Source: Tetrapyrgos nigripes (taxonomy: Eukaryota > Basidiomycota > Agaricomycetes > Agaricales > Campanellaceae). Taken from it: 64,000 bases of DNA. The stretch covers positions 1 to 64,000 of the forward strand of contig JAACJM010000254.1 in assembly GCA_013368315.1 (NCBI GenBank), in the 5' to 3' direction. The position numbers and the translations under genes were made by a program. This document shows, in pieces, positions 45,840 to 63,720 of the stretch. The notes beneath the pieces are model-generated. The model did not search any database and was not told the DNA's origin. It saw nothing but the letters and a program-made list of their open reading frames with translations. Within the stretch, counting starts at the first letter, position 1, and the number at the start of each line of letters is the position of its first letter.

Positions 45840-47252
45840 AGCGGTTGTTAGTGGAGAAACAAAGTTGGGGAGGGAGGAGGGAAACAGCGCTACTTATGTC
45901 AAAGTCTCTCGGGTCTCTTTCCGAGTCGGAAAAGATTTAAGGTTTCCGAAATGTTGGAAAGCTAAGCGTTGCTTATGCGTGACAACAGCCATGATGAGCC
46001 CCGCGCGTCTTTGCCATAACGGTTCCATTCATCTCAAGCATGCATATTAACCCGATTGTATTTCCGAGCTTCTAGTCCCGTCAGGAGCTGCGTTACTTCA
46101 CTTGCCAACCGTCAACGCCATTTGTCTGGTCCCCTTGCCACGAGTTCAACACGAATCAGACCTTGAAGCTTGAAGTCTAGGATGTCGACTCCTTGTGACA
46201 GTTGGAGTAGCCTACAGGAACATGGTAGCGTAGATCTGAGTAGCTACGGCGTGAGGAAACCGAGTGTATCCTACGTTGGAACCCTAACCCTAGGCCTGAA
46301 CCCTGAACCCAACCCTCCGACTGCAAATGTCGCGAAACGCACAGATAGCAGGGAGGACTGTCAGTTTTGGACAGGAAGGCGATGAGAAAGAGTGAACTAG
46401 CTCTTCAAACAGGTGAGTAGCAGTCGTAGCCCAGATCTTTTCCACGGGTTCAAACTCCCACCCCTGTTCGTTGGCGCTCATTAGGCGCTCATCTGGAATC
46501 ACGGTCGAGACCCATCAAAGACCCATGACGTTGTTCACGGCTTCCTCGGACCAACGCGAGGCCTTTCTGTCGACAACCACAACGTCATGCAAACGTCATG
46601 CCAGCTGGCAGCGTGTCGACTCTCTCGTTTTCACTGCCAGCGTCGACAATGTCCACGCCCTATTCCTCCACTCCTCAAGCTTGCATTCGCATTGAGTACA
46701 AACCTCGAAATTCTTGTCTTCAAATCCTCTTTCGTTGTTTTAGCTCTCTTTTTCTCAGCAGCTGCAGCGTAGTCAATATAAGAGTAAAATTTTGGCTTTA
46801 TTGAACAGGCCTCGTAGCTTGCCACGCGAAGCGATGGCTTTTTACCCCAGTAACTACTACGTCGATTTTTTAACAGTGTCAGCCACAATAGTGACCTTCA
46901 TCTACTCTCCGGTTGTGTCCGAGTGGTTGTCATTGACTTTGAGCCTTTGAGCAGGGGGAGTGAAGATTCCGGAGGTTACGACTATTCCCGATCAACGGAG
47001 AAGCTTCGAAGTTCGAAGCCCTCGACCAAACAAACAAATGGGGCCAAATTAAATTTAAGACGTCGGTTGCCACGTTTCGCGCCAAATCCAAAAATAACAT
47101 TCTGGATTCCCCCTCCCCCCACGTCCAGACGCAAGTCGACCGACATCCTCTCATTCGTCTTCCTCCCAGTCTCGTTCCAGGAGGTTACTCACTCAGTCGG
47201 TTTACCACAATCCCCCCCACGCCTCCCCCTACGCCTCAAACTTCCCCTCAGC
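45840..47252. other. Divergent spacer, no supported gene
   Basis: Lies between the divergently read membrane gene and the DUF7729-like gene. It holds a short CCCTAACCCTA run at about 46280 (two telomere-like units only) and a TACGAGGCC-like repeat on the reverse strand at about 46810-46840. Confidence 0.4.
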
Positions 47253-49345: not shown

Positions 49346-50845
49346 GTGCGTGGTTTTTCCTCTTTCTTTTGACTCGGGATATATATATCCTAGTTGGATT
49401 CTTTCTTGGGTTTGCATTCTTCGTTTGTGCTTTACTTTGTGCACAATATAAATGAACAATATGGTGTTACCATATACTCACTGCTTTCAACATCCTTTCC
49501 TTCTTTGCCTTGCTTTCTATTCTCTTTTTGGGTTGAGCTCCTCTACATTGCCCTCATCGTTGATGGAGATTGCGTTACCTTCTCTTATACGTACCTGCCT
49601 ATTACAAAAGAGCCCAAGTCCAAGTCCAAGTCCTGGCCCGGATCTCCTTTCTCTTTCTCTCCTCTGCTCCTCCTCCAAGTCTGTTATCTCACTAACAGTT
49701 CCTTAGTCTACTTCAACTCGCTTATTTATCCACTCGTCGTTTACTAACACGACTTCTGAGCATGCCTTGGTGACCATCGTCACAGCGTCTCGGTTTGGGA
49801 CATATTTACCCAAAATTACTGCCGGAATCCTGATTTTTGGGCTGAAGTCAGACAGAATGACATTTGGGTCTATGAGATGACTCAAGAGTGTGGGGGCGTC
49901 GTAGAAATCCTATGTATATGTATGTACCTACATTCAAGCCCGTCACTTCTGCAAAAGCTTAATAAAAGGTCAATCATTCGCAAACTGCTTTGATTGACTT
50001 TTACTTATCAAACCTTTGCAGAAATAGTACCACCCCAAGTCTCTCATCACATGAAAGAGTAAGACAAACTTAAACAGGACCATCACCTAATAATGCTATG
50101 GATTTTTCTCGTTCGAGTTGCCTTTTAAATTTCTCGTAGTCTTAGTACTGGTGGAATTGTACGTGTCTCTAATGCTGCATGGTATGGTCCATTCTATCCA
50201 GTATCAGGTGTACCAGTGACCACGCAGGATAGTAGGAGTTGACTTGAATCTGACTCGTTATAATCAATAAATATATAAAGTACATATAAGGTTGCTTTAT
50301 GCCTGATCGTACATTGCAGGTGAGTCACGAGTATTGTAAGTATCAGTGGAATCATGATAAGCCTGCGACCGAACGGCCACAAATGCACTGACTAGTACTA
50401 ATGATTCTGATATGAATGGAAAGAATGTGGAAGTACGTACAGGTTTCTAAGTTCTTGCTTTAAACATATCGAATTCTGGCCTAGTACTCCCGTACACGCG
50501 CAAGTCCTACGATACGTACGACTCCGTAGTAGATACTGCGGAGGCAAATATGTACTATAAGGAAGGAAGGAGCACTTTAAAGCGAGAGTGCCGACTTCCG
50601 CGAATACCGGTGTACAACGACGAAAGCATACCTGCATTACTCTAAGACTCGGACTTCGAATCCTCCGCGCAAAAAAATATTTAATTCAATACCACAATTA
50701 CATAAAGTAGATAGAGAAAATTGAGAGAGAACCAGCTGCATAGATTGTGAATGACTCGAGTCTCATTGTCGAGAGTATCTAATTCAAAACCAAAGAACAA
50801 ATATCAGAAAACTTAAGAGAGGAAAGGATTGCAACAGAGTACGTT
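49346..50845 (+). repeat. Segmental duplication, copy 3 (uninterrupted)
   Basis: The longest collinear version of the duplicated unit: the 3' flank of the DUF7729-like gene, the spacer, and the membrane gene's 3' flank. It contains the empty site of E2. It breaks off at 50845, where a TTACGAGGCC repeat starts, so no membrane gene follows. Confidence 0.85.
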
Positions 50846-50890
50846 ACGAGGCCTTTAGCCGAGTTAACTTATGTCGTCTTCGCAACTTTT
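50846..50890 (+). repeat. TTACGAGGCC-family repeat end at a duplication breakpoint
   Basis: TTACGAGGCCTTTAGCCGAG, then TTAACTTATGTCGTCTTCGC. It is closely similar to 13177-13220 and begins where copy 3 stops. Confidence 0.6.
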
Positions 50891-52394
50891 CCACGCCTGC
50901 AGTTTCTATTGCCGGCCACTGCCATAGCCGACACCCGGATGATCAGTCTTCGCTGCCCTACGTCTTCCTTCCATCGCACTTCTAGCTATTTCTCCTTCCC
51001 CCTTTTGTATACCTCTACAAGTCCGGGCAGCTCCATGGGCAAGCGCCCTTGACCGCCAGAGCCATCAAAGATCTGACAGCTCACCAACAGCTCACCGCAA
51101 CACATGTATAGTGCAGGCCCGTTTACTGGCAAATTGGCGTCTAGGATAGACGGAATGGCTCCAGAGCACAAATTATACGGTGCTGACAGTGCGTAAATAC
51201 TTTCTTTCACTTAGGATTGAGTAACGCTGACACACTTCTCATCTCTACCTTGATTTCTGTCTTAGATCCCAACAGGCCTTCAATTTCAACGTGGTTCGTT
51301 CCAACCTTGGTTCTGGTCCACTCATTTCGGTGTTAAGGCAAGAACTGGGCATTGAGCAGAAGAACGAGGTGTGATACGGTGTTTGATATATTTACAATCG
51401 TCCTTAGTTTTGCTGTCCAATGTATCTCTCTTCCACTTTGTGTTTTGTACGTGCTCTTACTCAAGACTCTACAGACGTTGTGATATATATAAGTTTACAC
51501 TATTTTATCAGGGTTGTAACACGCACGCACTGGGACGTGTTGAGCGCTCGGATGTACTTGTTCCTAGCCATCAGTGTAGCCGCCTTATATTTGAAACTCC
51601 CCGTAGCTGCTGTCGTCGTGTACACCCCGCATAAATGCTTTATTCACCCCGTCAGTCGTCCAGCATACATTTTTCTTATACTGGGCTTCGTGATACATAC
51701 TTGGTCTTGTAACTTGGCTGCGCAGCATTCCGTATGTGCGTACTTTGAATGGGCTTTCATAAGGGTGGCATCATCGAGATTTTTATTCAGTGTGTATCCT
51801 TGCGACGAGTTTTTGAATATGTAGTTTTGTAAATCCTCCGACCTTGTATATCACCTTTCAGATCTACAATCCAGATCTTCCGATCGGAGATCCTAACATT
51901 CACCTTCGCCCATATAGCTGTCCCGGGGCTGATACTACTGCTACTCTGTTCACTTTTCCTCGTTCATGGACTCATTCTACAATTTCCAACAAGCAAGTAA
52001 GTCTACTCACCCTGAACTTTTCTCTACATATTTTCTAATCATTTTCTGCCATTCAGAGCACCTCCTTGACACTGTCCAAGCCGAACGAAATAAAATGTAC
52101 CTCAAACAGTCGAGATCGTTGACAGTTGATAAGGTACGTTCTCTACGCCTCTTCTCATCGGCGTTGCTCACGTGGATTCCTGAAAGAACAATGACCTTGA
52201 GATACGACTTTACTCAAGCCCTCATTCCTATCGCGTCACAAACCGTGAAGATTACGAATACTCTAATTCACCATTCGAGGAGACTATTTTTCGCCTACAA
52301 GGTGTCGTATACGAGCGCGAATTGCCTCCCATGACGGCAAGCAGGTGCATGCTTTTTAATGGCTTCTCACTTACTAGTTAACTGATATCTTACC
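50891..52394. other. No firmly supported gene
   Basis: A reverse frame at 50986-51210 (NLCSGAIPSILDANLPVNGP) and forward frames at 51844-52334 (YNPDLPIGDPNIHLRPYSCP) look partly protein-like. The latter may be the 5' part of the decayed gene that follows, but no consistent exon chain was found. Confidence 0.35.
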
Positions 52395-53227
52395 ACAGTA
52401 GAGCGTATGCGAAGAAGCAAGCCCCGTACCTCCGTCAGCACATCGGAATCGTAGGACTGGGTCTTCCATATATGTCTACTTCAGTGGATCAGATCTATCA
52501 AATTTACTCCAAGTTCGAGCGTTCTCTGAATGATCAAAGCCTCAACCCATGGACTGCAGACGACTCATTCGGTCCTGGCCACCTCGGTATCACTGCAAAC
52601 TGCCGCTACTTCACAGTTGGTTCCACCGCGTCCACAAAGCAATCCATACCATTCCAGAGTGGCTTCGATCCGGACGGTGTTCTTCAGTCACTCGTCACAA
52701 GCACAGTGAGACACACAGAGGATAATGCAGTGCTTTACATGAAGGCTTTGAAGTCGACTCCAAATTCAAAGTGGCGGTACTACATCTACATTTCGTTTTC
52801 TGATTGACAATTATTTTGACTTGTCTACTGCCGCAGGTACAGCGAGATTTCACCCACTGATATCTCGATTGGTGATCTTGTCGAGATACAATTTACAGTG
52901 ATGGCCATTCGATAGCGGGATAGTTCATACAAGATGGTCCTGATTCTGAGGTTGATTGCGTTGTTGGATGATTCCGTTTCGACCGTTCATACTCATTCAT
53001 ACCTTTTTGAGTGATACTTATGCTTATTTTGACCAGGCTGCATCTATTGCGCGAAACCGTACACTCTCTTCGACGAAAAAGGTACCCGTTGCGTCGCGGA
53101 GCCTTTTGAAGTGTGTTAAATATGAAGACAGTTCTGACGAAGAAGATGTTTGTGAGCACCAGCAAGTGCGCAGAGATATGGCCCGACTCAGACTTGATGA
53201 GTGCGACGATAGAAGACCCCAGTAGCC
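52395..53227 (+). pseudogene. Agaricomycete-type hypothetical protein with in-frame stop
   Basis: The forward frame reads AYAKKQAPYLRQHIGIVGLG, YQIYSKFERSLNDQSLNPWT, GPGHLGITANCRYFTVGSTA and RHTEDNAVLYMKALKS. An intron at about 52785-52838 follows, then YSEISPTDISIGDLVEIQFT and VMAIR. There a TAG (52913-52915) interrupts before MVLILRLIALLDDSV. A further exon at 53037-53225 ends in a charged tail (KYEDSSDEEDVCEHQQVRRD). The block order matches an uncharacterised protein type I recall from many mushroom genomes, where the region equivalent to the TAG is open. So this copy is probably dead. Function unknown. Confidence 0.5.
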
Positions 53228-53435
53228 ACAGCATAGAATCACAGTACATAATTACATTGTCGAAGTTTTTGGAATTACATCATTGATTATGTTTGCCACA
53301 TGACAACTTCAAAAATTTTTTTGAGTGACGCAGATTGGCCTGACCACAACCCTCATGATACACCGATGCTGTGGGTGATAATCATGGGCAAATCTATCAA
53401 AAAAACTTTACACACATCACACTCATGTCAAAATA

Positions 53436-53705
53436 CGCTTCTCCTCCATTCCTTCAGGCGCGTTCTCCTGATTCGGTTACAATCACATAGGGAGACGATA
53501 GACCCTATCTGCGCTTAGTGAAAATTCTTTGTCACTTATCCAACCCATGTCATCAGGCCCTGGCCATCAAGCTTCTTCCTCCATTCCTTCAGGCGCGTTA
53601 TACTGATTTGGTTACAATCACATAGGGAGACAATTGACCCTATCTACGCTTAGTGAAAATTTTTTGTCACTTATTCATCCCATGTCATCGGGCCCTGGCC
53701 ATCAA
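53436..53705 (+). repeat. Tandem duplication, two copies of 135 bp
   Basis: CCTCCATTCCTTCAGGCGCG occurs at 53443 and again at 53578. The two units are about 95% alike and each ends GGCCATCAAGCTTCT. Confidence 0.85.
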
Positions 53706-54067
53706 GCTTCTCTTCTTGGAATGGAGACACCTCCTTTCTGATCACGCATACTAGAAGCTCTCTCATATCAGAGCGGGCTTCAAATTCTTGGGAACATATG
53801 GAGTGTACAAATCCCGACAGATTTCTCGGGGATTTTCTACATTCCAGTGTCGTTTCCAATTCATTCTCAATTTGCGTGTTGGTCGCTCACTAAAAGTTGA
53901 CTAACGTCAACCAGCTGTGGAATAGTACACGCACAATTTCCATCTTTGTAGGTCAATGTGATGGTTGCAATGATGAGGTTCTCACTCCTCTCGATCTCAG
54001 TTTTTATTCTTGCATCCGCATAAATACTAAAACTGTCTCTGTGCTTTCCTCAGCACCTCCCTAACTC

Positions 54068-54880
54068 ATGTCTCATACGCCAAAGGCTGCCAAGAAACCT
54101 TGTCCTGAGAGTTTCGACGTCCCCGACTCGGAAGACGATGCTCGCACTCCTCGCCGTTCACCACGAAAGTAAGTCTTAGCCTGGATGTTAGGGTCTATTA
54201 TACTCATGCGGAACTCTAGGCGATTGAGAGCACTGTCTTCCCTCCCGACACCAGTCCCAGCCACCCCAAAACGGGCGCGAGCAGCGACTAAGCCTCCCGA
54301 CGCTCCGAAACGAGGAAAAAGGTAATAGCTAATTTTTCTCATTCGCTACTGTGGTTTGTTTAATGTCTCTTATAGCCATGCGAAAGCTTCTGTCGAGGCT
54401 ACTACCCAGTACGACATTTCAGGTATCCGCAGGCCGTGCCGTTCATTGATCCCAAACCTGTTAATGTAGGCCTCTCTCAAACCTTTCAGTCACGCCAACA
54501 TTGTATGTACTGGAATGTACATGATCAACTCTCGACTAACCAGTATTGATTTTTCTAGACTTGCCCAACACCTGCCTCCTAGATTTGGTCCGAGGTAAGT
54601 ACTATTTGCTACTCCTTTCAAGCCTGTTTCTTAGTCTGCTTGACGGTTTCTCTACAGCGTAATGGACGGGTAAGTGCAGGCTTCACGACTCGCTATGCTA
54701 CTAGGCTTATACTCTCAGTCTAAACTACAGTTACCCGGACTTGTCTCCAGCATTCCAGTATGCCCCACCCAGCTACAACGGATTGTGCGTATGATTGATA
54801 TATTTTCTAGTTTGATCTCATCGCAACTTAGCGTACCGTATACCTATACTTTCACTGCCGACACTGCTCATGCTCCTCTC
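54068..54880 (+). pseudogene. Host gene, 5' part, split by element E3
   Basis: ATG at 54068 (MSHTPKAAKKPCPESFDVPD). Very short exons are separated by small introns. The N-terminus is basic and Ser/Pro rich with nuclear-signal-like patches (RTPRRSPRKRLRALSS, TPKRARAATKPPDAPKRGKS). The last exon before the insertion ends TYTFTADTAHAPL at 54880. The frame continues without a gap at 61264 (ATDTPSSSSTLPTSNATEED) when E3 and one CCTCTC copy are left out of account. Family unknown; a nuclear role is suggested only by composition. Confidence 0.6.
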
Positions 54881-55015
54881 TATGAGCCGCCGATTGGGAA
54901 AGTATTTAATTATACCTTCGCGCACAATGTCCGACCTTCGCACGGAATACTTGACCTTCGCACAGAATACTTGACCTTCGCGCATAATGCATGACCTTCG
55001 CACACATTGATGTCT
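54881..55015 (+). repeat. E3 left TIR with subterminal array
   Basis: About four units of the form GACCTTCGC(A/G)C(A/G)(G/C)AATACTT follow the terminal segment. Confidence 0.85.
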
Positions 55016-55362
55016 GACCTTTGCGTTGATGTTAGACTTGCATATTTGAATATCTATACTTATTCTCTCTAGATTTGAGGGCTAAAAGCCCGTTCCAGCT
55101 GTATTCAGCGTTGATTCAGCCAACCCTAACCAAGTGAACACTCGATATAGATTGCTGATAGATTGCTGAAAGATGCGGCAAAGAATATTTGGAGGATTTA
55201 GATAAGTGATGGTGTAAGTACGTTGAGTAGATATACTAGTAACAGAGTCTGTGAATTAATGAGGCATTAAGATGAATGATAATTAGAAAGAGACCATGTA
55301 AGTAAACGAGTGCAAGGAGTGGCTAGATATAGTGAACGAAAATTAATAGTGTGAACTAGAGA

Positions 55363-57160
55363 CTAAAATACGAGAGTCCAGTATGAAATTACCAAGAATA
55401 CCAAGTCAAGCTCGGACCAAAGCCAGTCATTTGCGGAAGACCAGACATGTTGGGAATGCTGTTCCATCTGAGGGTCATGCTGATAGACGTCGTCAGCCGC
55501 CTCGCTCGCTGAATTGACCTCATCAGGCAGATCAGGGGCTGTGTTGTCAGGAACGGCCTCACTCAGGCTCTTACCGTCGTCGTCATCAACTTCGATGACA
55601 TCTATAAGTAAAGGCAACAGCGATCAGTAACAATCTGAGGAATATAGATTTGCAACCTACCATTATTGGATTGACGTGATGTTGAATTGGGTTCTGCATC
55701 ACTGTCCAAGCTAGTAGCAGTGCTGAGACGTGCTGAAGCTATGGGGAGATCCTTGTCAGCGTCTATGGTCTCAAAGGAAAGTGGCTGGGGACCTACCACG
55801 TGTCAAACGACGACGCTTTGTTGGTCGCTCTGACTCTACTTCAGCATTCTCACCCTCCTCATCGCTAACAGCATGATAGCGGCGCTTCTTGATTGGTATG
55901 AGGGCTTGGGTGTTGGGATCGTCGGAATCTTCAATACTGCCGCCATCACAAGACTCATCACCACTAGCTTCTTCATCGCCAGAGTCGCTGAAGTCGTCAT
56001 CGCCGGATTGGGAGTTGTCTCCAAGCTTCCACGAGCTCAAGATCTTCTTAGGGATAGGTGATATCGTTGCTGGAAAAAAAAAAATGGTGTTAAAATAGTG
56101 AATTAACGACAATAGCATGCAGACTATAATAATGACTCACCAATCACAAGAACACTGTCAATAAATGCCTCACGCGAGGTCCGACTACGCTCATGAACAT
56201 CCTTGCCGGTCAAATCACCGTCGTCAGGCATAATGACAAATTCTCCCTTGTTGCGTGTGCAGACAAAGAAGGATGGGGTCTCTCCAGTAGTCTCGAGGTA
56301 GGTGAATACATCAGGAAAGTGTTCCTCGTAAGTGGCAAGAAGCTCGTCTTGCTGCATGTCCTTGCGAAAGCCAAAGCCGTCGTGACTTGTCTTGACGAGA
56401 CCACGTCGTGTTAAGGCAGCGAGAGAAGCCTTGGAGGGCGTCTTGCGCCATACAACATCAGACACCATCGTTGATGGCCGAATAAGCGGGTGGCGATCCC
56501 GATGAGTCTTTGATGCCTGTATAAGAGAAATATATCAGCGAAAGCAGCTTTAAAAACTACAAAATCTGAGACATGCCTTCACAAGGCCCACAGGTATCGT
56601 CATGAGTGTCCTGACCTTGAATTGGTTGAAACGGGGTGCTTTAGCCTTGAGAAAGAATGAGAGATGTTAGGTATGTGTTCTTTGTAGTCAGTGTTAAACT
56701 CACAGGGGTTGTGGACGTGGATTTCTTTGAAGGCCCTTGCTGCTTCGAGCCACTGCTCCGAGTCTTGCCCTTGAGCCCTTTACTTGTCTCTTTAATGGCA
56801 GTTGCAAGCATTTCGTTGTCATTGGTGGTCGAGACCGGTGGGGTTGAGCTGACGAGGAGATCAACCATCTCACGATGGGAACGGCCGTTGAGATGGCAAA
56901 AAGCCTCCATGCTAGGTCCAGCAGTAGGTACATCATCGTCGGAGTCTTCAATCAGATCTGCAACAGATTGGGATGTTGGGTTGTCGTGTTGGATGCGCAG
57001 GATGGAGGGGACTTCTTCTTCAGATGTAGAATCTGCAGCTTGGTGGCGTGAAGAACCTGGCAAATGTGAAGTGGTAGGGCGTCGTGTTCAAGGTTTCCGA
57101 TGGTTGGTGTTTCGAGGTTTATTGGTTTTCTTTCGTCGTTTGTACATGAAAGGAACGTGA
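55363..57160 (-). CDS. E3 gene A: acidic, nuclear-like protein, unknown
   Basis: Reverse-strand multi-exon gene. Pieces in order: GSSRHQAADSTSEEEVPSIL and DLIEDSDDDVPTAGPSMEAF (57060-56930), AKAPRFNQFKVRTLMTIPVG (about 56640-56580), ASKTHRDRHPLIRPSTMVSD through FGFRKDMQQDELLATYEEHF and GEFVIMPDDGDLTGKDVHER (56510-56150). Then come an acidic stretch (DNSQSGDDDFSDSGDEEASG) and a basic bipartite-type signal (ERPTKRRRLTRG) at about 55810, and more acidic exons to about 55363. Introns are GT-AG. The start codon is uncertain: an ATG at about 57148 (YKRRKKTNKPRNTNH) would need a further intron. The mix of acidic and KRRR segments suggests a chromatin- or DNA-associated accessory protein; this is inference. 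Confidence 0.55.
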
Positions 57161-57369
57161 TGGTGGTTGAGAAAAGAAATGCGACCGTGTCAGACCACAA
57201 ATCAGGTCGCTCAAGTTCCGTCCGTTACTCTTCACATTTTGAGCTTCTTTCAATATAATGTGATGTGATATTCCGCTTCAAATGTCCAATAGAAAGTTCT
57301 ATTATTAGCAAGCTCTCATCGAGAATATTCTAGCAAGTACAACTACTACAAAGAATGCAGGGGGCGACA

Positions 57370-58576
57370 CTATGTTGCAGAAGAGATAGGTACTGTCATT
57401 GGGCCCCTAGGAAGCAAGGAAAGAACTCGGTTACACGCAGCTTCTTTGGTCTCCTTATCCAAATCAAACTTTCCGGAATTGATGATGCGAATGATCACAG
57501 CATCCTTGCACCCTTCCGTCACTCCAGGAAACGTCATCTCCTTGATCATCTGAAGACCCTTTGCAAAGGTAGGATCATTGGGGAATGGTCGAAGAAAAAC
57601 CGGCGAAAATTTCGTCAGCCAACCTTCATGCCAAGCCTTGTTACACCGAGAATCTACGTGTTTGGGCCTGAAAAAGGGACAGAGAACATCGCCCTGAAGC
57701 AATGATGGAGGCGTTGAAGCCATCAGCTCACGCTCCTGAGAAATGCGCACATGAGCCTCAACAATAATGGAATAGACGATGGGAAGCTGATATGTGCTTT
57801 CTTTTTCTTCCTCCGAGTAAAAATTCATCGGAATCCCAATAAGCTGAGGAACAAAACGCTGAATCCAACAGGGAACACCCTCCTGGCAAGCTAGCAGGAC
57901 TTTTTCCCATTTGTTAAGCTGGTGATAGTCGGAAAGTTGTTCAACTGCATGCTCCATTCCGCCCAATGACACAAACTGATTGGAAATCTTGAGGAGTCCA
58001 ACGTAATAAGGGATATAATCCTCCGATCTGGCCTCCAGTTTCTTCCAGCCTCTGAGAAAAATCAGCATCAACGAGGACACAATAAAAAGGAAGGGATACA
58101 AACACTTTCTTGATGTAATCCAAGAATGGATAAAACTGCTCCTTCTTGACAGTCGGCCCCATGTAAACAGGATCGTCGAAAGTGCCTTTAGCAGCTGATG
58201 GCAGTGAGAAAAGATCTTGAAATCCCTCCGAGACATCCGTGACACGACTTAGATTCAGACTAACCACCTCGTCCTCAACCTATGCATGTACAAAGAAACT
58301 GCACGTTCAACACATATTAGACTCAAATTGAATTCAAGTGCTTACTCGAATACATATGTTCCGATTCTGGTCACAGTATTGGTGATTTACTTTGAATCCT
58401 TGAGAAGTTACGAATGGATAGTGGTCAGATGAAAGTAGGTTGTCACCAAGTGGAGTCGGAATCATGATGTCTTGATGAGAGACTGGGGGCCGTTGACGGT
58501 GAGAGTTTACCACACAATTTATGTACCCATGATCAGCACTTATGGTAAGCTCGTGCCTAACACATGTTTCCCTCAT
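57370..58576 (-). CDS. E3 gene B: unknown protein
   Basis: Possible ATG at 58576 (RETCVRHELTISADHGYINC, then DNLLSSDHYPFVTSQGFKVN). An intron (about 58345-58280) leads to VVSLNLSRVTDVSEGFQDLF and KGTFDDPVYMGPTVKKEQFY. A second intron (about 58110-58055) is followed by LEARSEDYIPYYVGLLKISN, QLSDYHQLNKWEKVLLACQE, CWIQRFVPQLIGIPMNFYSE and GKFDLDKETKEAACNRVLSL, with a stop at 57370. No frame breaks are evident beyond these introns. I recognise no family. Its start would overlap the start of the divergent transposase gene (shared CATG at 58574-58577), so one of the two starts may lie elsewhere. Confidence 0.5.
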
Positions 58577-60746
58577 GTCACTACCACCACTGCCGATTCC
58601 TCGTCATCGTTCAAGTCAACCCGCCAACGTTGTCCAGGCTGACCAGACTTTACGTGATATATACCGATCAGCAATTAGCGTGCTTTCACTGCCAAGTATC
58701 GATCCATGGCGCACTGAGTATCATCTGCAGACCATTGCCCGTGATGCTGTTCCTTTACTCATCACAGTTGAAGATTCGTCTGGAAGTTCCGAGCTGAAGA
58801 AGTGGGTGTATGAATGTGCAGAGGAATTTGGAGCATTATGTATTAGGCTAGCAGAGGCTGGTGCTCAACCGTACGTTTCCTTACTGTAAAATACACTCAA
58901 TTGTTACTTACTTCATCTTTACTGCCAGGGACGAAGAAAATCCAAATATACATTTTATCAATCCTGTCACCACTGTTCGTACTGGAAAACGAGGCCAGCC
59001 TCGCAAGGTCATCGATCCATCGTATCTCTGTAAGGCCATGAATCCCAAACGTCGCATTCCCATCACAGTTCTTGCAAAGGCTTTGAAAGTCTCTACGAAA
59101 ACAGTGACGTCATCTCTCAAGCAAAATAACATCAACTACAAGCCTTCCAGAATCTCTGATCGACAATTGGACGATGTCGTCAAAACCTTTCAACAGAAAA
59201 AGCCACGTTCAGGGGAGCAATATCTGACTGGGTACTTGAGGCGAAGTGGTCTAAAGGTTCAGAGGCAAAGGATACGGGAGTCTGTGCGGCGTGTCGATAA
59301 ACTAGGCCATGCGCTTCGCTTACAGCAAAAGCGGAAGATCGAGCGAGTACCCTACATGGTCTCTAGGCCAAATGCTCTTTGGCATATTGATGGCCATCAC
59401 AAGCTGATTCTCTGGGGCATTGTGATTCATGGTTGTGTTGATGGATTCTCCAGAAAGGTAAGCCGATGTCTTTCAAGGCAGTTGTGATTTGATGACATGT
59501 TTTGAATTATGAGGTCACTGGGCTTCAAGCAAGTACTGATAATAGAGCATCCACTGTTCTCAGGATGTTTTCATGTGCTGTAAACAGGTACGGATGGCCA
59601 TCACGTGTGAGAGGAGATCGAGGAGGAGAGAACCGTGATGTATCAGTAGTGATGATTCTCCATCGTGGTCTTAGAAGGGGAAGTTTTATTTGGGGGTCAT
59701 CAACTCACAACACTCGTATTGAAAGGCTTTGGGTTGAAGTTGGAACTCAGTTTGTTCGGGCATGGAGAGCATTCTTCTTCCGTCTAGAAAGGAGACATTA
59801 CCTTGACAGAAAAAATCCCCATCATCTTTGGCTTCTGCAATTCTTGTTTCTTGACACTATAAATGATGACTGCAAGGAGTTCCAAAAGGACTGGAATGCC
59901 CATCCTATTTCAGATCTTGGTCATGGTAGAAGCCCTAATGTGAGCTGATTTTTATTACTGTCCTCATGCTACAAGTCTTGTCATAAATTTCAGGATCTCT
60001 TTTTTCTTGGCCAGCTAAGACATGGCATTTACAAAGATGACTGTGAAGGGTGCTCTCCTGAAGAGATAGCCAGATCATATGGTGTCTATGGCACTCCTAT
60101 ACACCACCATGCACATCAAACAGGAGCTGGACATTCATCAGATGAGGAGTCTGAATCAGAAAGTGATTGTGAAGGTGAATATTTACCACAAATTTCTGTA
60201 TGTATTATGGAAATTAACTTGAGGTGTATCTGTCCAGAATGGTATGGAATAGACGATGAAACCAATTCAGGTAAGTAAACAATTTTGGATATGGTTCTTC
60301 TGTAATAAAATTTAATTTAGCTGATTCCTGGTATGGGATTGGAGGTGAAGCAGATGATGTAGAGGTACAGGCACAGTTTGAGTCTGGTCAGTCCAAATAT
60401 ATCTTTTTGATACATCTTACCTTACAAAATATGTGATTTTGGTGCAGACAATGAATCATATCAGGCAGTTGATGCTCCTGATCATTCAAAACCTTTTGAT
60501 CAAAAAAGGATGATGGTATTTACAAATGCATTGGCCCAGATGTGGGAAGAAGGTCGTGTACCATCAGGATATGGTCTCTTGGAAGATGAATTGGGGGAGG
60601 ATGGGTATCCTGGCCTCGAGACAATTTCAACAGGACGAAGTGGCTCAAAAACACTGGATATTGTGCTACCTCATGTAATATGGAAGCCTCGGGCTGAGCT
60701 TTGGGTCACAGCGTTGTACTTGATGGACAGGCTTCTGGAAATGTAA
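58575..60746 (+). CDS. E3 transposase: integrase-core DDE protein, 609 aa
   Basis: Likely catalyses cutting and joining of E3 ends in the nucleus. Seven exons (58575-58870, 58929-59457, 59514-59939, 59994-60174, 60238-60270, 60321-60386, 60448-60746) join exactly in phase with GT-AG introns to 609 residues. The N-terminal part has a helix-turn-helix-like region (PITVLAKALKVSTKTVTSSL, about 143-162). The integrase core has D253 (ALWHIDGHHKL), D310 (SRVRGDRGGEN) and E345 (STHNTRIERLW), with 34 residues between the last two. After the core come KNPHHLWLLQFLFLDTINDD and HPISDLGHGRSPN, then an acidic tail and a C-terminal segment (LDIVLPHVIWKPRAELWVTA). This protein type is often annotated 'integrase core domain protein' in mushrooms and has relatives in animals (from memory). 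All key residues are present. Confidence 0.88.
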
Positions 60747-61120
60747 TTATATTATTCTAGTTTGTATCTAACAAGGTGTTGACACTAGTTAATTACTGAG
60801 GTATGAGACTGGCTATAAGAAATTGAATCTTAAAGATTAAGGTGAAATTGTCAGATCTTGTTCTTCAACTTGAGTGTGGGAATGACTGTGAACTCACCTT
60901 CAAGATACCCCTGAATCAGCAGTAGGCTTCCCTGAAGCCAAGCGTCATTTTTCTGATGAAGATAATACTCCAGGAAATACCAGAAAATAGTCTAGTAAGA
61001 GAAAAGCCAGCCACAACATGATACAAGACTCAGAGCGGCACATGCTGATATGAGCACAGCTTTCTGCATATATCAGGAACATATCTATTGGTAAGTCTAA
61101 AGGCAGGACACAGAATCAAA
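60747..61120. other. E3 3' spacer
   Basis: Non-coding region between the transposase stop and the right TIR; nothing further is recognised. Confidence 0.4.
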
Positions 61121-61257
61121 TGTTGGACATTGTGCGCGAAGGTCAGGCATTATGCGCGAAGGTCAAGTATTATGTGCGAAGGTCAAGTATTATGCGCGAA
61201 GGTCGGACATTGTGCGCGAAGGTAGAATTTGAATACTTTCCCAGTCGGTGGCTCATA
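61121..61257 (-). repeat. E3 right TIR with subterminal array
   Basis: Reverse complement of the left TIR: five GCGCGAAGGTC-type units, then TTTGAATACTTTCCCAGTCG and GTGGCTCATA. Confidence 0.88.
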
Positions 61258-61263
61258 CCTCTC

Positions 61264-63264
61264 GCTACTGATACCCCATCTTCGTCTTCTACTTTGCCCA
61301 CTTCAAACGCCACTGAGGAGGATAATTTACGGTTCGTCTCTCTGTCTGCCTCGAAGATCATATAATGTGTTGATCGCATTTTAGAACTTTGAAATCTATG
61401 CAAGTCATGGCTCATGTTATGTGCTGATCATGATGGCTCACGAGTCTTACAGTGTCAATGAAATTCGGAAACCAGATACACTGTTCTACGCGTTGTACGT
61501 GGTCCATTATCATTTATTACTGACCCGCTCACCTCTTTGTCTCATATAGACAATGTCTTTACCACTTGTAAGTCACTTAGCTTATGCATTCCCTTGGCAC
61601 AGGCTCTTAAGGCAATGTGAAATTCTCCAGTCTCGATGACGCTATCCCTAATCTCCCAGAACAAGCGCTGTGAGTCTGTCATGTACCCTATAACAAGTCT
61701 CTAGGAGCTCATTTTGCACTTTGCAGTCAAGCACTGCCTCTCGTCCCAAACTCGCTCACCGATAAAGTGACTATGTCTTTCGTTAAAGAGTTGTATGTCA
61801 GTATATCTTTTCCGAATTATTTTTACACTCACTTCTATTTAGATTCCACACCGACCACGATCTGGATCTTATTTGGGAATCAGCGAAGTTGTTCTTAACC
61901 CGAGCACAGTTTGATGAGCTTGTGATGTACGTCTTGTTAAATACTCCTCTCTCGCTTTATCTCATATTTTAAGAACCAGCCGTCGTGTAAACACTTTGAA
62001 AGAACGCGTAGATAATCCTCAAGCTGCAAGCGGAGTGATAGTACCAACTGATTGCACGCCACTGTATGTTCCTCTGTAAAACCATATGTGATTACTATCT
62101 GAAAATTTTTTTGACAGCACCAGTACCGTTCTGGTCCCGGCGACATTCCCTGTGACTCCAGAGACACCGTCTCCATCGAAGTCTTCCAGTGCTCTTTCTA
62201 AAATGCCGTTGGTCACCACCCCAAACATGTCGCCATCCTCTCCATCAAACGTTCAGGTCGACGATCAGCAGCTTCCAAGATTGTCATTTGCTCAACGCTT
62301 AGCAAGACACAATATACCGCTGCCTGTTGCAAGAGATAACCAAACGTTGTCCACACCTGTGTAACAGCTTTGGATATATACTGATCATACGACAATTTGA
62401 TAGTGCGTTGCCAAACGTCTGTCAAGTCACAAAGGCAAATTTGCAGGACGATCTGCTTTTGTGTGAAGGCTTTGACTACGGCTCCTTACCACCACTGATG
62501 TGCGTCATCCCCTATGATTGGTAGCTCAGTACTAACGAATAAATCAGGGCGGGTAAGTTGATTTCTTGGTCATCAACCTTAGTCCGTAAAGGGAATCTCA
62601 AATTCTCTGAATGGGCCTGTACACTGCCCGATTCCGTCTCAGTGGGGTGAGTACTTGCGTTATCCAGGCTGTTCAGCCACTAATACACTTTAGCTTTCTG
62701 ATCACCTTTTTCAAATTCGATCGATACGAAATTATGTCAACCTTGCTCGCATTAACCCTCGAGACCTTGCCGCCTTCTCTGGCCATTCACTCAACTCAAT
62801 CTGAAATGTACTTTATGTCCGATCACCTCCAGAACCCGCTATCAGTTTATTCCCTATATCTGTAGAAGCATCCTCATTAGTAGGGTACGCACAGCTAAAG
62901 GGCAAGGATCTGAGAAGGTATCACAAGCTGGACAGTATTCTTCATTCCCAGGATGCCGATCGTGCGATCGCAGTTATCAATATGGTACTTGGAGAGGGAA
63001 AGAATGAAATGGCAGCAGAAATTGTCTCAGATGTGCTTTCCTTTTCCACTCGAGTGGAAAGCCCAAATCCTCCAGCTTGTAAGTTCGCTCACTTTTATTA
63101 CATCCTCCGAGTTATCGCTAAGCATTTACTGTCATTTTTTTAGCATCCTCCCCCAGTGCAGATCGTGTGTATTCGGCGGCTACAGCAAGTTCTTCTACCG
63201 CAACCAGCTCTAATTCCTTCTCATTACCATTTGATGCATCAGGTTTGTGCCAAATTACATTGTA
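61264..63264 (+). pseudogene. Host gene, 3' part, split by element E3
   Basis: Continues the exon broken at 54880 in the same frame. Many short exons follow, with VNTLKERVDNPQAASGVIVP, TSTVLVPATFPVTPETPSPS and RLSFAQRLARHNIPLP. Then comes a helical C-terminal part: GNLKFSEWACTLPDSVSVG, FLITFFKFDRYEIMSTLLAL, DADRAIAVINMVLGEGKNEM. The end is Ser/Thr rich and stops at about 63264 (LPFDASGLCQITL). The insertion separates it from its promoter, so it is probably not expressed as part of the original protein. Confidence 0.55.
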
Positions 63265-63460
63265 AATGGCTCAAGATTGACCTTCCCTTAGTTCCAGTCT
63301 ATGACGCCACTCAAGCTGCAGAAAAGTTTGATGTCAACTCAGACCTTCCCGCTATTGACACCATCTTACCACGCTGGAGCGGTGAGGTTCCACATGGATC
63401 CCTTGCCGTTGTCGGTTCCAGCATCTCTGCTTATATACTTTAATATTTTTGACCCACAGA

Positions 63461-63720
63461 TGTGTAGTAGTTAACTCTCCTTATTCACTCTCCTCACTCT
63501 CCTTACTCACATCTCCACTTTCCTCTACACCTTAGACACTCCTCGACTCCTACTTCGACTCCTACGCTCCTTCCTGGTTCTATTTTCGTCATATTACTCC
63601 TTTTAGCATTAGTATTTATACTTAGACTTTTCGTAGTATTTTCCTCAGTCAAATCAACTCTTATTTTCTATCTAAAGTTGTCTTTAAGTCTACTTAAGGG
63701 ATTATTCCAAGTCCCTTACA
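63461..63720 (+). repeat. 5' LTR of an LTR retrotransposon (Ty3/gypsy-like candidate)
   Basis: Begins TGTGTAGTAG, ends GTCCCTTACA, and shares its internal words and end with the solo LTR at 29556-29781. It is followed by a leader and a gag-like frame. Confidence 0.55.

Follow-up and report, generated by a model that had tools for sequence, protein, structure and literature searches.

A window of the Tetrapyrgos nigripes genome, by which we mean the whole 64,000-nucleotide stretch of DNA analysed, carries at positions 54881-61257 an element here called E3, the sequence of which was inspected over 54400-61800. E3 is a genuine, recently inserted cut-and-paste transposon of the IS3EU type, with an open transposase gene and two more genes. 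It is flanked by target-site duplications (TSDs) of the sequence CCTCTC at 54875-54880 and at 61258-61263, and is bounded by terminal inverted repeats (TIRs), the left of which (54881-55023, + strand) starts with TATGAGCC and the right of which (61117-61257, - strand) terminates with GGCTCATA. Aligned to each other, the two arms of 143 and 141 bp are identical in 127 of 144 columns; over their outermost 29 nucleotides 26 positions agree, against a maximum of 18 among 20,000 pairs drawn at random from the window. Each end contains a sub-terminal array of five units with 20-bp spacing, namely ACCTTCGY starting at 54914, 54934, 54954, 54974 and 54994 in the left array (54914-55001, + strand) and its complement at 61136, 61156, 61176, 61196 and 61216 in the right (61136-61223, - strand). 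Elsewhere in the 64 kb, in the same orientations, ACCTTCGY occurs three more times and its complement twice. These arrays are putative transposase-binding sites. An earlier sequence-only reading of this DNA had proposed both the CCTCTC duplications and TIRs alike for about 130 bp with arrays of repeated units, and both were borne out.

A DNA search of the organism's own genome (98.5 Mb, 587 contigs) with E3 gave at least 66 matches; 40 of 74 candidates were scored, and the counts are therefore lower bounds. Three copies are full-length: E3 itself and those on contigs C74 (69421-75850) and C11 (767432-773802), which match E3 at 97-98%. All three possess the TA..TA termini (TATGAGCC..GGCTCATA) and 6-bp target duplications, these being CCTCTC for E3, CACTAC for C74 and TTCTCG for C11; the presence of other TIR-bounded copies with different 6-bp flanks, a test set beforehand, was thus confirmed. 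Substitutions per aligned site amount to 0.85% between E3 and C74, 1.39% between E3 and C11 and 1.15% between C74 and C11, and the movement of E3 is recent. The flanks of E3 recur at 97-99% on contigs C132 and C165, where the left and right flanks overlap by six bases. When read, both sequences proved to be empty sites, with one CCTCTC and without the element (C132 is also without about 0.8 kb farther left, query 175-991, distant from the junction). The single CCTCTC at these sites indicates that the target of E3 was one of three near-identical repeat copies and that six base pairs were duplicated on insertion.

Two loci on contigs C42 and C502 (L009:4397-5504 and L010:3642-4687) share one internal-deletion join, between E3 positions ~560 and 5481. 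A transposing internal-deletion derivative is not claimed; other sequence interrupts both loci, and their outer flanks are not comparable. A further element of about 2 kb (L017:8-2024) is bounded by TATGAGGC..CCTCATA and contains arrays of units resembling CGACCTTTGCATTTGATGTC; its six flanking bases on either side mismatch each other, and it is probably a non-autonomous relative of E3.

The transposase gene, on the + strand, was modelled as seven exons and 609 codons: exon 1 at 58575-58870, exon 2 at 58929-59457 (with D253 at 59389-59391), exon 3 at 59514-59939 (with D310 at 59616-59618 and E345 at 59721-59723), exon 4 at 59994-60174, exon 5 at 60238-60270, exon 6 at 60321-60386 and exon 7, stop included, at 60448-60746. 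All six introns of E3 are GT..AG, and the frame is open in all three full-length copies, in agreement with the earlier description of a 7-exon gene with these three residues and no frame break. Support for the predicted exon joins comes from conservation and from public predictions. Among the latter, P0001, from the C74 copy, equals our model over the first 608 residues, and P0002, from E3, follows it up to the end of exon 5 (488 residues) before diverging. P0002 (D9758_017251) joins the E3 transposase to sequence past the right TIR (61264-63462), a fusion which is likely to be a misannotation.

Comparison of the transposase with Pfam, which had been suggested beforehand, revealed rve and rva_4 (residues 241-427) above the cut-off. 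The IS481 (6.9e-13) and IS3 (2.1e-12) models also matched, both below cut-off. The predicted structure possesses an RNase H-type DDE (integrase-type) core. No CxxC is present in residues 1-252, and there is thus no HHCC zinc domain before D253; helix-turn-helix domains are precomputed in 2 of the 120 transposase homologues listed. Compared with solved structures, the transposase alone gave no match up to E 1, and its profile gave four rows with E 0.14-0.73, two of them to Mos1 over residues 90-181.

The interval from the left TIR to the transposase is occupied by two further genes, both on the minus strand. Gene 2 (58576-57370, 362 codons in the model) is divergent from the transposase and comprises exon 1 at 58346-58576, with a tentative start codon and a two-base overlap with transposase exon 1, exon 2 at 58104-58279, with a tentative splice donor, and exon 3, with the stop, at 57370-58051. 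Its frame is uninterrupted in E3 and C74, and that of C11 contains a single stop codon. Gene 1 follows gene 2 and spans 55355-57147 in about six exons (57147-56704, 56645-56577, 56516-56141, 56069-55797, 55761-55661 and 55601-~55355), of which the last two, and the 3' limit near 55355, are tentative; its second intron starts with GC in E3. Gene 1 is damaged in all three full-length copies: its codon 20 is a stop in E3 (57088-57090, - strand) but a sense codon in C74 and C11, C74 has lost a single base, possibly through sequencing error, and C11 has a 38-base deletion with a further stop.

Coding constraint was assessed by comparing E3 with four copies of about 75% identity (the B copies) at CpG-safe sites, the figures being blurred by the decay of these copies. 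In the transposase, third codon positions differ by 24-26% and first and second positions by 6-10%; the corresponding ranges are 24-28% and 6-12% for the transposase and gene 2 together, and 25-29% and 13-23% for gene 1. The introns of the three genes differ by 27-29%. All three genes have therefore been under past coding constraint, gene 1 the least.

Neither gene 1 nor gene 2 had a Pfam match above cut-off, and a named family was found for neither; the sub-threshold rows SAUGI, DUF5867, DUF7399 and Paramyxo_C were taken as chance. Gene 2 suggested a resemblance to fungal BTB proteins, unsupported by Pfam, in which it had no BTB match, or by profile comparison with host BTB proteins using hhalign (weak, E 0.24 and 0.12), and a BTB identity is entertained as a hypothesis only. 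A protein database search with gene 2 alone and with a three-homologue alignment found no match, T. nigripes proteins included. Since the database depends on gene prediction and the genome encodes homologues, the rarity of gene 2 is not to be judged from this result. The following structural leads were set aside: a model of exon 3 alone, with a pLDDT (predicted local distance difference test) of 34.5; a match of the gene 2 alignment to the solved structure 4ozs ("Alpha solenoid protein"; E 1.7e-4, 23.8 bits), which no single stretch passes; and five further rows with E 0.06-1.3.

The transposase has matches at no fewer than 51 loci in its own genome (72 of 261 candidates scored). Gene 2 has matches (E up to 1) at 20 loci, every one of which adjoins a transposase match, and genes 1 and 2 consequently look like parts of the transposon. 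Ten of these loci belong to E3 and the 75% group and ten are diverged (C51, C77, C68, C22, C281, C170, C178, C324, C8:378k and C45). Gene 1 homologues (E < 1e-3) lie beside seven of the ten diverged loci; at the remainder, C178 gave a match only at E 0.1 and C22 and C45 gave none. Of the 51 transposase loci, 31, some of them fragments, yielded nothing for gene 2 even at E up to 1. In the six diverged loci that were fetched (L029-L034), gene 2 is invariably divergent from the transposase and gene 1 is on the same strand as the transposase and downstream of it, a gene order that differs from that of E3. The C51 and C77 elements end TATGG..CCATA, with 6-bp duplications TATGTA and CCTCTC, respectively. 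CCTCTC is thus the duplicated sequence at both E3 and C77, which are independent insertions, and five TSDs are too few for a test of target preference. Inside the transposase gene of the C51 element (L029:4042-4713) there is a 672-bp repeat with more than 30 genome copies at 95-98%, which also matches itself on the opposite strand and is perhaps a small non-autonomous element.

The two minus-strand genes had been overlooked by the sequence-only reading, as had the position of E3 inside another repeated unit. This unit of about 6.2 kb (window 50843-54880 and 61264-~63462) recurs at 97-99% on C132 and C165 and as partial copies at about 65-81%, and E3 interrupts an open frame within it. No TIR or TSD was recognised for it. 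Its left edge, at window position 50843, is common to all three copies; on the right it extends to about 63462 in C249 (the window contig) and C165, with C132 diverging some 40 bases before that point. The window also contains a repeat some 420 bp long (46430-46851), for which at least 21 other genome copies at 93-99% are among the matches listed. Just past the window (L040, C249:64001-67500) are long open frames which, by eye, resemble the gag and reverse transcriptase of a Ty3-type long terminal repeat retrotransposon.

By its features and profile similarity E3 fits the IS3EU type. In the excerpts of the published accounts used here and below, complete IS3EU families are bounded by TA..TA and generally duplicate 6 bp of target, Ginger2 duplications are of 4 or 5 bp and those of Ginger1 of 4 bp, and most IS481 members produce 6-bp TSDs (PMC10045372). 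E3 shares with the IS3EU/GingerRoot superfamily, as excerpted from that source, a 6-bp TSD, TA..TA termini, an integrase-type DDE transposase related to IS3/IS481 and the absence of the HHCC motif; the families there are described by their transposase, whereas E3 has three genes. The bacterial IS481 and IS3 elements are alike in transposase profile and, for IS481, in the typical 6-bp TSD (PMC10045372), but E3 scores far under the family cut-offs and has introns and long TIRs with arrays. With the structures of retroviral integrase, TnsB and IstA the E3 model has the RNase H-type DDE core in common, at 10-18% identity over the aligned core, which is a likeness of fold only. Rust TET+ IS3EU families have TAYGG..CCRTA termini and contain genes for a TET/JBP dioxygenase and an alpha-kinase (Kojima 2025, PMC12730594). 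In the excerpted account, rust and Tuber TET+ elements resemble E3 in the 6-bp TSD, TIRs of more than 30 bp, TAY.. termini and extra genes, with a partner gene opposite in orientation to the transposase (PMC12730594); the two extra genes of E3, however, match neither the TET/JBP dioxygenase nor the alpha-kinase of the rust elements in Pfam. IS3EU is also listed in the repeat annotations of Ganoderma leucocontextum and Phlebopus portentosus (PMC8955403, PMC12411881). In its gene set E3 appears to depart from known IS3EU elements. This set is not described in the portions consulted of the literature on IS3EU, on BTB and transposons, on Agaricales BTB and on mushroom integrase transposons; Repbase was outside the scope, and an entry may exist there. 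Marasmius oreades is a mushroom in the same family as Tetrapyrgos. In its monokaryons new transposable element insertions and excisions of hAT, LINE and Mariner types are reported in the excerpted account (PMC9674265).

We consider it very probable that E3 is a recently inserted, full-length IS3EU/GingerRoot-type cut-and-paste DNA transposon, its history comprising transposase-driven insertion, accessory genes and later CpG decay. A recent DDE transposon of this type had been proposed from the letters of the window, and is now upheld by two more full-length copies with different 6-bp duplications, by a pair of empty sites, by the fold of the predicted structure and by similarity to family profiles. 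Some observations weigh against this explanation: the empty sites are paralogous repeat copies and not a demonstrated allelic site, the E3 end TATGAG differs at its fifth base from the TAYGG of rust IS3EU (in the excerpt cited), a pattern that the related C51 and C77 elements do show, and gene 1 is interrupted in three of the three full-length copies and gene 2 in one, so that no full-length copy has all three genes open. That E3 belongs instead to Ginger2 or another integrase-like superfamily is very improbable. Its transposase model does also resemble retroviral integrases, and the IS3 and IS481 profiles matched only below cut-off, but the 6-bp duplication, TA..TA termini and lack of CxxC before D253 fit IS3EU/GingerRoot as excerpted (PMC10045372). 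It is also improbable that genes 1 and 2 are chance passengers, whether host genes that were captured or a second element that had landed in E3. The invariable adjacency of gene 2 to transposase matches, which includes ten diverged loci, seven of them with gene 1, argues against this, as do the codon-position bias in both genes and the constant divergent orientation of gene 2 in the diverged loci fetched; in its favour are the lack of a named family for either gene, the breakage of gene 1 in every full-length copy and the 31 transposase loci without a gene 2 match.

A far stronger contender, although we would still put it somewhat below an even chance, is that E3 is a relic which moved recently and is now immobile, through loss of a needed accessory gene 1 or through silencing by CpG methylation. 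Gene 1 has a different lesion in each full-length copy. When private substitutions were polarised by the majority of the three full-length copies, C-to-T changes at CpG made up 21 of 34 in E3, 12 of 19 in C74 and 36 of 54 in C11, and the observed/expected CpG ratio falls to 0.29 and 0.44 in the two B copies measured, compared with 0.65-0.73 in the full-length copies; it is 0.84 in the C51 element. This pattern would fit methylation-linked decay. Against immobility, no full-length copy has lost its transposase frame or either end, the ratio of E3 itself (0.70) is near that of the whole window (0.74), DNA transposons can be complemented in trans, and gene 1 may not be required. The sequence-only reading had called E3 recent and complete-looking and held that it could still move. 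Its recency and the intactness of its transposase and ends stand. Present-day mobility is possible but unproven, given that in this three-gene element gene 1, which may be needed, as may gene 2, is interrupted in all full-length copies.

If E3 is the cut-and-paste transposon that we favour, its transposase would bind the 20-bp sub-terminal units via a helical N-terminal region, pair the ends and cut at the TA termini. The ends would then be inserted into the target DNA at a 6-bp stagger, from which repair would generate the duplication. Genes 1 and 2 would presumably supply accessory functions of the transposon, and copies would decay after insertion mainly by C-to-T at CpG.

What began as a guess from raw sequence has become a defined element for which copies, duplications and empty sites are known, and its genome contains no fewer than 51 loci with transposase matches. 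Perhaps, and we advance this tentatively as an idea rather less likely to be right than wrong, mushrooms harbour a branch of IS3EU with a conserved three-gene set, in which a DDE transposase, a possibly BTB-type protein and a charged protein of nuclear appearance (by eye) co-evolve and are needed for transposition or for escape from silencing. Should the two extra genes indeed be necessary, IS3EU would be added to those eukaryotic transposons for which a transposase alone is not enough.

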